The notes below the pieces were generated by a model, which saw nothing but the letters and a program-made list of their open reading frames with translations, made no database searches and was not told the DNA's origin. A DNA stretch of 64,000 nt from Halogeometricum sp. S3BR5-2 (GTDB lineage: Archaea; Halobacteriota; Halobacteria; Halobacteriales; Haloferacaceae). Shown piece after piece: positions 3,697 through 53,221 of this stretch. The first letter of the stretch is position 1; every line of letters begins with the position of its first letter. The stretch lies in contig NZ_JAMQOQ010000001.1 in the NCBI RefSeq assembly GCF_031624635.1, positions 620,001 to 684,000 of the forward strand, read 5' to 3'. The translations under genes were made by a program, and so were the position numbers.

Positions 3697-3882
3697 ATGA
3701 AGGAATCCCTGATGGACATCCTCTGCGACCCGCTCGACAAGAGCGACCTGGAACTCGAAGTCACGGAGCGAGACGGCGACGAGATACTCTCGGGGACGCT
3801 CGTCGGCACCGTCACGGGCGAGGAGTACCCCATCGAGGACGGTATCCCCAATCTCCTCCCGCCGGATATGCGGGACGAATAG
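3697..3882 (+). CDS. Trm112-family methyltransferase partner protein
   Basis: A 61-residue protein with the Trm112 outline: MDILCDPLDKSDLEL at the N terminus, a middle beta region, and the C-terminal signature YPIEDGIPNLLPPD. In eukaryotes and haloarchaea Trm112 binds and activates several class I methyltransferases acting on tRNA, rRNA and release factors. Only one cysteine remains (ILCDP), so the zinc-binding form of the fold seems to be lost, as in many archaeal members. A TATA-like TCTTTTG about 26 nt upstream fits a leaderless transcript from the ATG at 3697. The gene ends in TAG. Confidence 0.85.
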   Translation: MKESLMDILCDPLDKSDLELEVTERDGDEILSGTLVGTVTGEEYPIEDGIPNLLPPDMRDE

Positions 3883-3931: not shown

Positions 3932-4507
3932 GTGACCGAGTCGCTGCGAGTCGAGTTGAACGGAGATGGCCTCCACGCCATCGACGCGCCGCCGTCGTTC
4001 TCGGCGGCCGGCGAGTTCTACGTCGTCCTCGAGAACGCGGGACAGGCCGTGCACGTTCACCTCCACCTCGACGACGACCTCTCCGGCGTCGCGCGTCTCG
4101 ACGGCGGCAACCACTACGTCGAGGGCGGTGACTCACAGCACGTCCACGTCGAGACGTCCCCCGCGGCCGAACCCGTCTCCGGCACGCTGAAAGTCGTCAC
4201 CGGGTACGGCGCGGAGACGGCGTACGTCGACGTGACGATAGAACCGACGCCGGAGTCGAAACCCGGTATCGACGTCGACGAGGAGTTGAGCAAACCGCCC
4301 CAGCGGGAGCCGGAACCCTCCCTCGCCGACGAGTTACGAGGAGCGCTGCCGGCGGAGGTGTCGGTGCCCGTCGCGGCGCTGATACTGCTCGTGGTGTTCG
4401 TCGCCGCCCTCGTCGTCACCGTCGTTCAGAACACGGTCGTCGTCCTCAGCGTCGGCGTCGTCCTCGGCGCCGCCGCCGTCGCCGCGCTGTTCGTCCTGCG
4501 CGAGTAG
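3932..4507 (+). CDS. Haloarchaeal membrane-anchored protein, function unknown
   Basis: The 191-residue product has a soluble beta-rich domain (about residues 1-110, including the histidine-rich strand AVHVHLHLDDDLSG), an acidic proline-rich linker, and two C-terminal hydrophobic helices (about 145-165 and 168-187) separated by only a few residues. No N-terminal signal peptide is visible, so the soluble part probably faces the cytoplasm. The GTG at 3932 is preferred because a TATA-like CGCTTTTGAA lies about 28 nt upstream. The HVHLHL motif could bind metal, but that is a guess. I do not recognise a characterised homologue. Confidence 0.75.
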   Translation: MTESLRVELNGDGLHAIDAPPSFSAAGEFYVVLENAGQAVHVHLHLDDDLSGVARLDGGNHYVEGGDSQHVHVETSPAAEPVSGTLKVVTGYGAETAYVDVTIEPTPESKPGIDVDEELSKPPQREPEPSLADELRGALPAEVSVPVAALILLVVFVAALVVTVVQNTVVVLSVGVVLGAAAVAALFVLRE

Positions 4508-19104: not shown

Positions 19105-20190
19105 ATGAACACGCTACTCGTCACCTCGACCCACGAAAGCACCGGCAAGACGGCCATCACCCTCGCGCTCGGCAAACTCGCACAGGAGCGCGGGAGTTCC
19201 GTCGGGTACATGAAACCGAAGGGCACGCGCCTGCAGTCGAACGTCGGGAAGACGCTCGACGAGGACCCGATGCTGGCCCGCGAGGTGCTCGGCCTCGACG
19301 CCGAGATGCACCAGATGGAGCCCATCGTCTACTCGCCCACGTTCGTCGACGGCGCCATCCGCGGACGCGAGGACGGCGACGAACTCGGCGAAATCGTCGA
19401 GGAGAACTTCGAGCAACTCGCCGAGGGCACGGACCTGATGCTCGTCGAGGGCGGCGGCGTCTGGTCGACCGGCGGCATCGTCGACATGACCGACGTCGAC
19501 GTGGCCGACCGACTCGACGCGGGCGTCCTCCTCGTCGCCGACTACACGAAGCCCTCGGACCTCGACGACCTGCTCGTCGCCGCCGAGCAGTTCGGCGACC
19601 GACTCGCGGGCGTGCTGTTCAACGGCGTCACCGACGCCGTCTTCGACGAACTCGAACAGGAGGTCGTCCCGTTCCTCGAAGGCCGGGGCGTCCCCGTCCT
19701 CGGCGTCGTCCCGCGCGAACAGGAACTCGCCGGCGTCACCGTCTCGGACCTCGCGGACGAACTCGGCGCGGACGTGGTGACGCGCGGCGACGAGGGGGCG
19801 TACGTCGAGCGGTTCCTCGTCGGCGCGATGGGCGGCGACTCCGCGCTCCGGTACTTCCGCCGGACGAAGGACGCCGCGGTCATCACCGGCGGCGACCGCT
19901 CGGAGATAATCACGGCCGCCCTCGAGGCGCCGGGCGTGAAGACCATCATCCTCACCGGCGGTCACCGGCCGCCGTCGGCCGTCCTCGGCAAGGCCGAGGA
20001 GAAGGGCGTCCCCGTGATGCTCGTCAACGGCGACACGCTGTCGGTCGTCGACCGCGCGGAGGACGTCGTCCACTCCGGGCGCACCCGCGACGAGCGGACG
20101 GTCTCGACGATGCGCGACCTGCTGTTCGAGCACACCGACGTGGACTCGCTGGTCGGTCCGGCCGACGGCGGCGACGCCGACGGGGAGTAG
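19105..20190 (+). CDS. Phosphotransacetylase-family protein (BioD-like plus DRTGG)
   Basis: The 361-residue protein has an N-terminal P-loop domain like BioD/CobQ (LLVTSTHESTGKTAITLALG, then LMLVEGGGVW) and a C-terminal DRTGG-type domain (about residues 215-330; VITGGDRSEIITAALE, ILTGGHRPP). This is the regulatory N-terminal half of large phosphotransacetylases; the catalytic Pta domain is absent, so it should not make acetyl phosphate by itself. Its 3-nt spacing behind acd points to control of acetate/acetyl-CoA exchange, perhaps by nucleotide or CoA sensing. That role is inference from context. Confidence 0.88.
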   Translation: MNTLLVTSTHESTGKTAITLALGKLAQERGSSVGYMKPKGTRLQSNVGKTLDEDPMLAREVLGLDAEMHQMEPIVYSPTFVDGAIRGREDGDELGEIVEENFEQLAEGTDLMLVEGGGVWSTGGIVDMTDVDVADRLDAGVLLVADYTKPSDLDDLLVAAEQFGDRLAGVLFNGVTDAVFDELEQEVVPFLEGRGVPVLGVVPREQELAGVTVSDLADELGADVVTRGDEGAYVERFLVGAMGGDSALRYFRRTKDAAVITGGDRSEIITAALEAPGVKTIILTGGHRPPSAVLGKAEEKGVPVMLVNGDTLSVVDRAEDVVHSGRTRDERTVSTMRDLLFEHTDVDSLVGPADGGDADGE

Positions 20191-51779: not shown

Positions 51780-51897
51780 CATCGGATAAATTTCTTGTGT
51801 GTCTCGGTCGCCGACATCCCGGCTTCGGAGAAATTCGCGATCCGCCTCCCGTCGCGCGAATCCCAGAGAATTTGTGCGTAATCGCCGATACGGGGGT

Positions 51898-52482
51898 ATG
51901 GCTCACGAACTGGACGACGTCGACCGAGGGATTCTCTACCTCCTCCAAGTGGACGCCAGACACACGACGTCGTAGGACATCGCCGCCAAGGTCGGCGTCT
52001 CCGCGAGCACCGTTCGCAACCGCATCGAACGCCTCGAAGACGACGGCGTGCTACGGGGGTATCAGCCCGTGATCGACTACGAGGAGGCGAACTTACCGTT
52101 CCACGTCATGTTCGTCATCACCGCGCCCCCGTCCGAACGGGAACGGATCGTCGACCGCCTCATGGACGTCCGAGGCATCATCGACGTCCGCGAGATGCTC
52201 ACCGGTCGGCGGAACATCCACGCCGAGGTGGTCGGAGAGTCCACGACAGACATCGTCCGCATCACCGACGCCATCCACGAGATGGGCGTCGAGGTCGAAA
52301 GCTCGGAGATCATAAAGCGGCGACGGAGCCAACCGTTCAACCACTTCTACTTCTCGGACCCGTTCGACGGCGAGGAGAGCGAGGACGAGAACGAGGGCGG
52401 GGAACACGAGGAGCACGGAAGCGAGCGAGAGAGCCGAGAGGACGCCGGCGCGCGCGAGAGCGACGAGGAGGAACAGTCGTGA
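51898..52482 (+). pseudogene. Lrp/AsnC-family regulator interrupted by an in-frame TAG
   Basis: From the ATG at 51898 the frame encodes LDDVDRGILYLLQVDARHTT, then a serine and TAG at codon 26 (51973-51975), and continues in the same frame without further stop to 52482: DIAAKVGVSASTVRNRIERL (HTH recognition helix), then the RAM-like ligand domain (GRRNIHAEVVGESTTDIVRI) and an acidic tail. Homologues have Gln or Glu at the stop position, so one base change (for example CAG to TAG) explains it. Everything else, including a leaderless-type promoter (GAGAATTTG, about 26 nt upstream), looks intact. Either a recent pseudogene, a sequencing error, readthrough, or reinitiation at GTG 52048 to give a 144-residue HTH-less protein. 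Confidence 0.85.
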
Positions 52483-52483
52483 C

Positions 52484-52496
52484 AGAAATAATTTCT
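52484..52496. terminator. Inverted repeat AGAAATAATTTCT after the AsnC gene
   Basis: A perfect 6+1+6 palindrome begins two bases after the TGA at 52482 in AT-rich sequence. It may be a 3' element of the AsnC gene, or a binding site. A terminator in archaea needs only a T-run, so the assignment is uncertain. Confidence 0.3.
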
Positions 52497-52601
52497 AATC
52501 CGACTGCTCTGCTAATTTCGCAGTAATCCCCGTCATCACTGCTAGTATCGTTTGTCAAGTCTGTTTTTACGTGACTGAAGAACCGAATTATTGCGAATCT
52601 G

Positions 52602-52657
52602 TTTAAATGTTTCTGGTATGTCAAGAAACGTATTTGCGTGGCCCCACGTTTTTTTTT
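52602..52657 (+). promoter_or_regulatory. HalOD1 gene promoter/leader with inverted repeat and hairpin-T9
   Basis: TTTAAAT at 52602-52608 is the likely TATA box. Immediately downstream, GTTTCT and AGAAAC (52609-52614 and 52624-52629) form a perfect inverted repeat covering the predicted transcription start. The leader then holds CGTGGCCCCACG (52637-52648, a 4-5 bp hairpin) followed by nine T (52649-52657), which is terminator-like, only 4 nt before the ATG at 52662. This may be a repressor site plus an attenuator. Confidence 0.5.
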
Positions 52658-52661
52658 AAAG

Positions 52662-53129
52662 ATGCGAGACACTGAGCCGACAGACGCGGCTGTCGACTAC
52701 AACTCCGAGACGGGGACGTATCGGGGGTACTTCGACCCGGACTCCGAACCGGTGAGCGACGCCGTCGTCAGGGTGTTGTCGAGGATTTCCGAGCGCGAAC
52801 CGGAGGACCTGCGACCGGTAGACGACATCGTCGACCCGATAGTGTTGGACGCGTTGGTCCGCGAGCGACGGGGGGAGTTCCAGTTTCGGTTCGAACACGA
52901 GGGGTACGCCGTCCTCGTGACGAGCGGGGGCGAACTCCTCGTCTGGTCGGGCACCGTCCCGCTCGGAGGGGAGATACTGACCGACGCCCAGTTCCGAAGC
53001 GCCCTCGATCAGATCGTCCGCGAGGCCGAGGAGAACGGTATCGGCGTCGAGGGAGGGTGGGAGACGTCGGCGGCGGACGAGGGCTCGGTGTGGGACGTCG
53101 AGATTCTGGAAGTCAGGCGGTCGGACTGA
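52662..53129 (+). CDS. HalOD1-domain protein
   Basis: The 155-residue protein is a stand-alone haloarchaeal output domain 1: VDYNSETGTYRGYFDPDSEP, VSDAVVRVLSRISEREPEDL and GEFQFRFEHEGYAVLVTSGG. HalOD1 domains occur at the ends of signalling proteins and alone, and are thought to act as signal outputs; the biochemical action is unknown. After the core (about residue 90) comes an extra segment, ILTDAQFRSALDQIVREAEEN, that is longer than in minimal family members. The ORF is open from 52638 but the first codons there encode the T-run; ATG 52662 is taken. Confidence 0.88.
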   Translation: MRDTEPTDAAVDYNSETGTYRGYFDPDSEPVSDAVVRVLSRISEREPEDLRPVDDIVDPIVLDALVRERRGEFQFRFEHEGYAVLVTSGGELLVWSGTVPLGGEILTDAQFRSALDQIVREAEENGIGVEGGWETSAADEGSVWDVEILEVRRSD

Positions 53130-53175
53130 CCGTCGCGCCGGGTCTGGTTCTTCGGGGGTGGGAATCGGCGTCTGC

Positions 53176-53183
53176 TTATATAC
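53176..53183 (+). promoter_or_regulatory. TATA box of the DoxX gene
   Basis: TTATATAC lies about 42 nt before the ATG at 53222, predicting a leader of about 16 nt that contains an AAGGTG Shine-Dalgarno-like element at 53208-53213. Confidence 0.55.
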
Positions 53184-53221
53184 TGTCGCCTGTCGCTTGT
53201 CCAACCGTAAGGTGAACTAAG

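Follow-up and report, generated by a model that had tools for sequence, protein, structure and literature searches.

According to a review of the subject (PMC8211752), stop codon readthrough in Archaea is known for selenocysteine and pyrrolysine only. Work on termination-reinitiation in H. volcanii concerns genes that overlap or lie close together, where Shine-Dalgarno motifs are used (PMC6728339). HalOD1 is described as a signalling-output domain of haloarchaea that has no assigned activity (PMC5847659). Here, we compare such systems with a locus of Halogeometricum sp. S3BR5-2, located in a stretch of 64,000 nucleotides (the window), where an Lrp/AsnC-type regulator gene carries an amber codon inside its helix-turn-helix (HTH) domain and is followed by a HalOD1 gene. 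The features of the regulator gene are:

51871..51878, + strand: TATA-like element, a putative promoter, about 20-27 nt upstream of the ATG, placed like that of leaderless haloarchaeal promoters
51898..52482, + strand: frame of the Lrp/AsnC-type regulator, 194 codons plus TGA, with one TAG inside
51973..51975, + strand: in-frame TAG at codon 26, within the HTH domain (from frame reading, Pfam and the homologue alignment)

The frame starts with ATG at 51898, meets its sole TAG at 51973-51975 and is then open until the TGA at 52480-52482, so under table 11 the gene lacks an uninterrupted full-length coding frame. There are no frameshifts or further stops. With codon 26 read as Gln, the protein matches PF13404 (HTH_AsnC) at 49.3 bits (cut-off 27, E 4e-13) and PF13412 (HTH_24) at 51.8 bits (cut-off 21.9, E 6e-14), which places it among the AsnC-type winged HTH proteins. 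The putative C-terminal RAM/ligand-binding part has no match to a Pfam AsnC ligand domain, and NCBIfam LysM/Lrp models align with residues 5-141 below their cut-off. Full-length homologues show ~60-71% identity, with E-values down to 1.6e-75, and are conserved along the entire length of the protein. Given the HTH matches and these homologues the frame is not a chance one; frame, Pfam and homologues agree with the original prediction of a whole Lrp/AsnC gene running from ATG 51898 to TGA 52482 except for codon 26.

The rest of the gene looks intact. After the stop, the GC content by codon position is 0.65/0.37/0.89, which resembles that of functional neighbour genes. In columns that are at least 90% conserved the protein departs from its homologues only by I52L and L68F, both conservative; besides these it has an acidic C-terminal tail that is longer than in the homologues. 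Most homologues of its clade have TTTGTA at the position of the TATA-like element. A TATA-like element about 26 nt upstream of the ATG, common to the clade, suggests that the transcript is leaderless. Composition, homologue conservation and the TATA-like element fit the earlier view that the promoter, the remaining HTH, the ligand part and the codon use look preserved.

We compared codon 26 across 46 aligned homologues, none of which has a stop there. The residue is Gln in 35 and Glu in six, as had been expected, and something else in the other five (Lys in two, Gly, Val and Ala in one each). The codons are CAG (21), CAA (14), GAG (4), GAA (2), AAA (2), and GGA, GTC and GCG (one each). The window gene belongs to a clade of seven rows (support 97/85), where codon 26 is GAG in L016, L017 and L019, CAG in L020, GGA in L018 and GCG in L015. 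Since GAG and CAG are one base from TAG, one substitution explains the stop. Internal stop flags elsewhere in the alignment (L018, L032, L040 and others), considered as conserved TAG codons, are natural C-terminal ends. L015 seemed to be a broken orthologue and turned out to contain a stretch of Ns, the sequence coming from a MAG.

Readthrough to some degree would give a full-length regulator, and the frame beyond the stop is wholly preserved. However, the best PylS match in the genome scores 25.4 bits, the cut-off being 178, and the same search gives below-cut-off matches, i.e. related synthetases, in 12 out of 14 control genomes. None of 48 tRNA hits (Rfam hits, ARAGORN, two read by eye) carries a CUA anticodon. 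This set lacks long-intron tRNAs such as tRNA-Trp, the latter probably owing to its long intron, so that an intron-bearing suppressor could escape detection. Of the two hits missed by ARAGORN, one resembles an intron-bearing tRNA-Arg(TCT) and the other has no CTA in the anticodon region. An anticodon-loop pattern gave five matches: four are D-loops of known tRNAs, and the fifth does not rise above the reversed-pattern control. As PylS, the Rfam tRNA hits and the anticodon-loop pattern are all negative, both pyrrolysine recoding and suppression by a tRNA were rejected. The RNA fold around TAG is no stronger than in shuffled sequences (z 0.01), no homologue shares the TAG, and the known archaeal cases are confined to the two amino acids named above. 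We therefore regard readthrough, raised in the original prediction, as extremely improbable.

TAG is also an ordinary terminator here. Of the coding-like ORFs in the window 9 out of 49 end in TAG, as do many of the homologues from related genomes. All three examples put forward earlier were confirmed as TAG-terminated ORFs: a short Trm112-like one ending at 3882, one of 191 aa at 4507 and one of 361 aa at 20190. This use of TAG speaks against general recoding, as had been argued.

A second possibility is a shorter product made from a start downstream of the stop:

52048..52050, + strand: GTG at codon 51, the proposed reinitiation start, not conserved

An open frame of 144 aa starts at this GTG, and a later ATG could serve as well. 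As Lrp proteins function as oligomers and 14 Lrp-like matches exist in the genome besides the window copy (15 in all), a ligand domain without its HTH could poison related regulators, the dominant-negative effect that had been proposed. One of these 14 has a stop flag, a TAA beyond the conserved part (alignment column 171). However, codon 51 is GTG in 4 out of 47 sequences and ATC in most, and no Shine-Dalgarno-like motif is found upstream of it. The GTG also sits 72 nt beyond the TAG, compared with the overlapping or very close genes of H. volcanii reinitiation, and the transcript appears leaderless. On this evidence an HTH-less product is very unlikely. It is highly improbable that a functional product, whether a ligand domain without HTH from its own start or the outcome of low-level readthrough at the amber codon, tunes the remaining Lrp regulators of the host.

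To estimate the age of the stop, we used three-taxon codon fits (GY-type, six triplets, codon 26 omitted). Omega on the window branch is 0.03-0.07, values that are rough as dS is close to saturation. A free omega gives no significant gain over a shared one in any of the six triplets, the lnL differences being 0.5-2.1 for two extra parameters. Omega would increase by roughly f if the gene had been drifting neutrally for a share f of the branch, which limits f to a few percent at most, a rough bound with dS near saturation. The protein branch of the window gene is long (0.56). The fits indicate that purifying selection acted along nearly the whole branch and that the stop is either recent or a sequence error. 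The absence of a second stop is a weak clock, because only 2.8% of single changes within codons 1-165 would produce a stop. The low omega, the intact remainder and the uniqueness of the stop among the homologues support the recent loss that the original prediction had assumed.

The lack of any secondary disablement would also fit a sequence error or a functional product. If one base was wrong in sequencing or assembly, the strain would have a sense codon at this site and its regulator would work; all but one base of the gene appears functional, and the genome is a draft of 22 contigs. However, modern consensus assemblies rarely contain single-base substitution errors, and the other coding-like genes examined in the window appear intact. 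We consider such an error unlikely. The stop is absent from the homologues and no recoding machinery was found, as in a nonsense pseudogene, and most likely an accessory regulator was recently lost here by a nonsense mutation.

The regulator gene has a conserved neighbour, and both lie in a segment that is variable among the congeners:

52662..53129, + strand: intact gene of a HalOD1 domain protein, 155 aa, conserved neighbour in the Lrp clade
51801..53199, + strand: segment with Lrp plus HalOD1, missing from the congeners G004 and G002, which have 125-131 bp of intergenic DNA there

All seven clade members (window, L009, L010, L011, L014, L015, L020) have a HalOD1 gene 3' of Lrp on the same strand. 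Outside the clade, L021 has Lrp followed by HalOD1 too. The four clade partners that were examined, which are full-length, have two HalOD1 domain hits each, and the partner in the window has one. The Natrarchaeobius partner (L010:4628-4889) matches over just 82 residues, after which its frame apparently shifts, and it may be decaying. The pair may be a regulatory module. We found no description of it in a small literature sample, and its conservation could lend HalOD1 proteins a regulatory context.

G004 and G002 align with the window at ~90-93% up to 51800 and at ~89-94% from ~53200. In G003 and G001 the alignment breaks at the same place and the region holds other genes, two of which we take, from reading their translations, to be AMP-phosphorylase-like and ribose-1,5-bisphosphate-isomerase-like. 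A conserved membrane-protein gene and a DoxX gene flank the site (L085-L088), which contains ~130 bp in two congeners, the AMP-phosphorylase-like genes in two others and Lrp-HalOD1 in the window. The Lrp gene is found in none of the four congeners at E 1e-40. At the thresholds used it is patchy, present in 15 of 170 genomes of the family and 41 of 392 of the order. Its nearest relatives are mostly from other families, and a plasmid of Haladaptatus carries one of the homologues. The simplest reading is that the gene was probably acquired laterally and entered a variable site; its loss from each of the four congeners would be a less simple account.

Taken together, a DNA-binding Lrp/AsnC-type regulator would have arrived, probably laterally, along with the downstream HalOD1 gene. 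A single point mutation, from GAG or CAG, would then have turned codon 26 into a stop in this strain, where translation would halt after 25 residues and no working regulator would be made. Such a stop calls for no new mechanism, it is an ordinary event of a known kind. If this is true, the gene is another recently gained accessory regulator lost through a single nonsense mutation, and a warning against reading lone in-frame ambers as recoding.

The locus shares the in-frame UAG and the conserved frame beyond it with archaeal pyrrolysine recoding. It differs in that no PylS, CUA tRNA or conserved UAG was found and in not being a methylamine methyltransferase gene. Its nearest homologue, from Natrarchaeobius chitinivorans (L010/L017), is 70-71% identical. 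Like other haloarchaeal Lrp/AsnC regulators (PF13404/PF13412), the window copy has the sequence of the HTH and C-terminal domain over ~165 residues, the promoter position and the downstream HalOD1, and unlike them it has the TAG at codon 26 and the longer acidic tail. Compared with ordinary nonsense-mutation pseudogenes it shows no further decay so far, and it resembles them in having one premature stop, confined to a single genome, within a frame that is conserved elsewhere and in being an accessory gene absent from the congeners.
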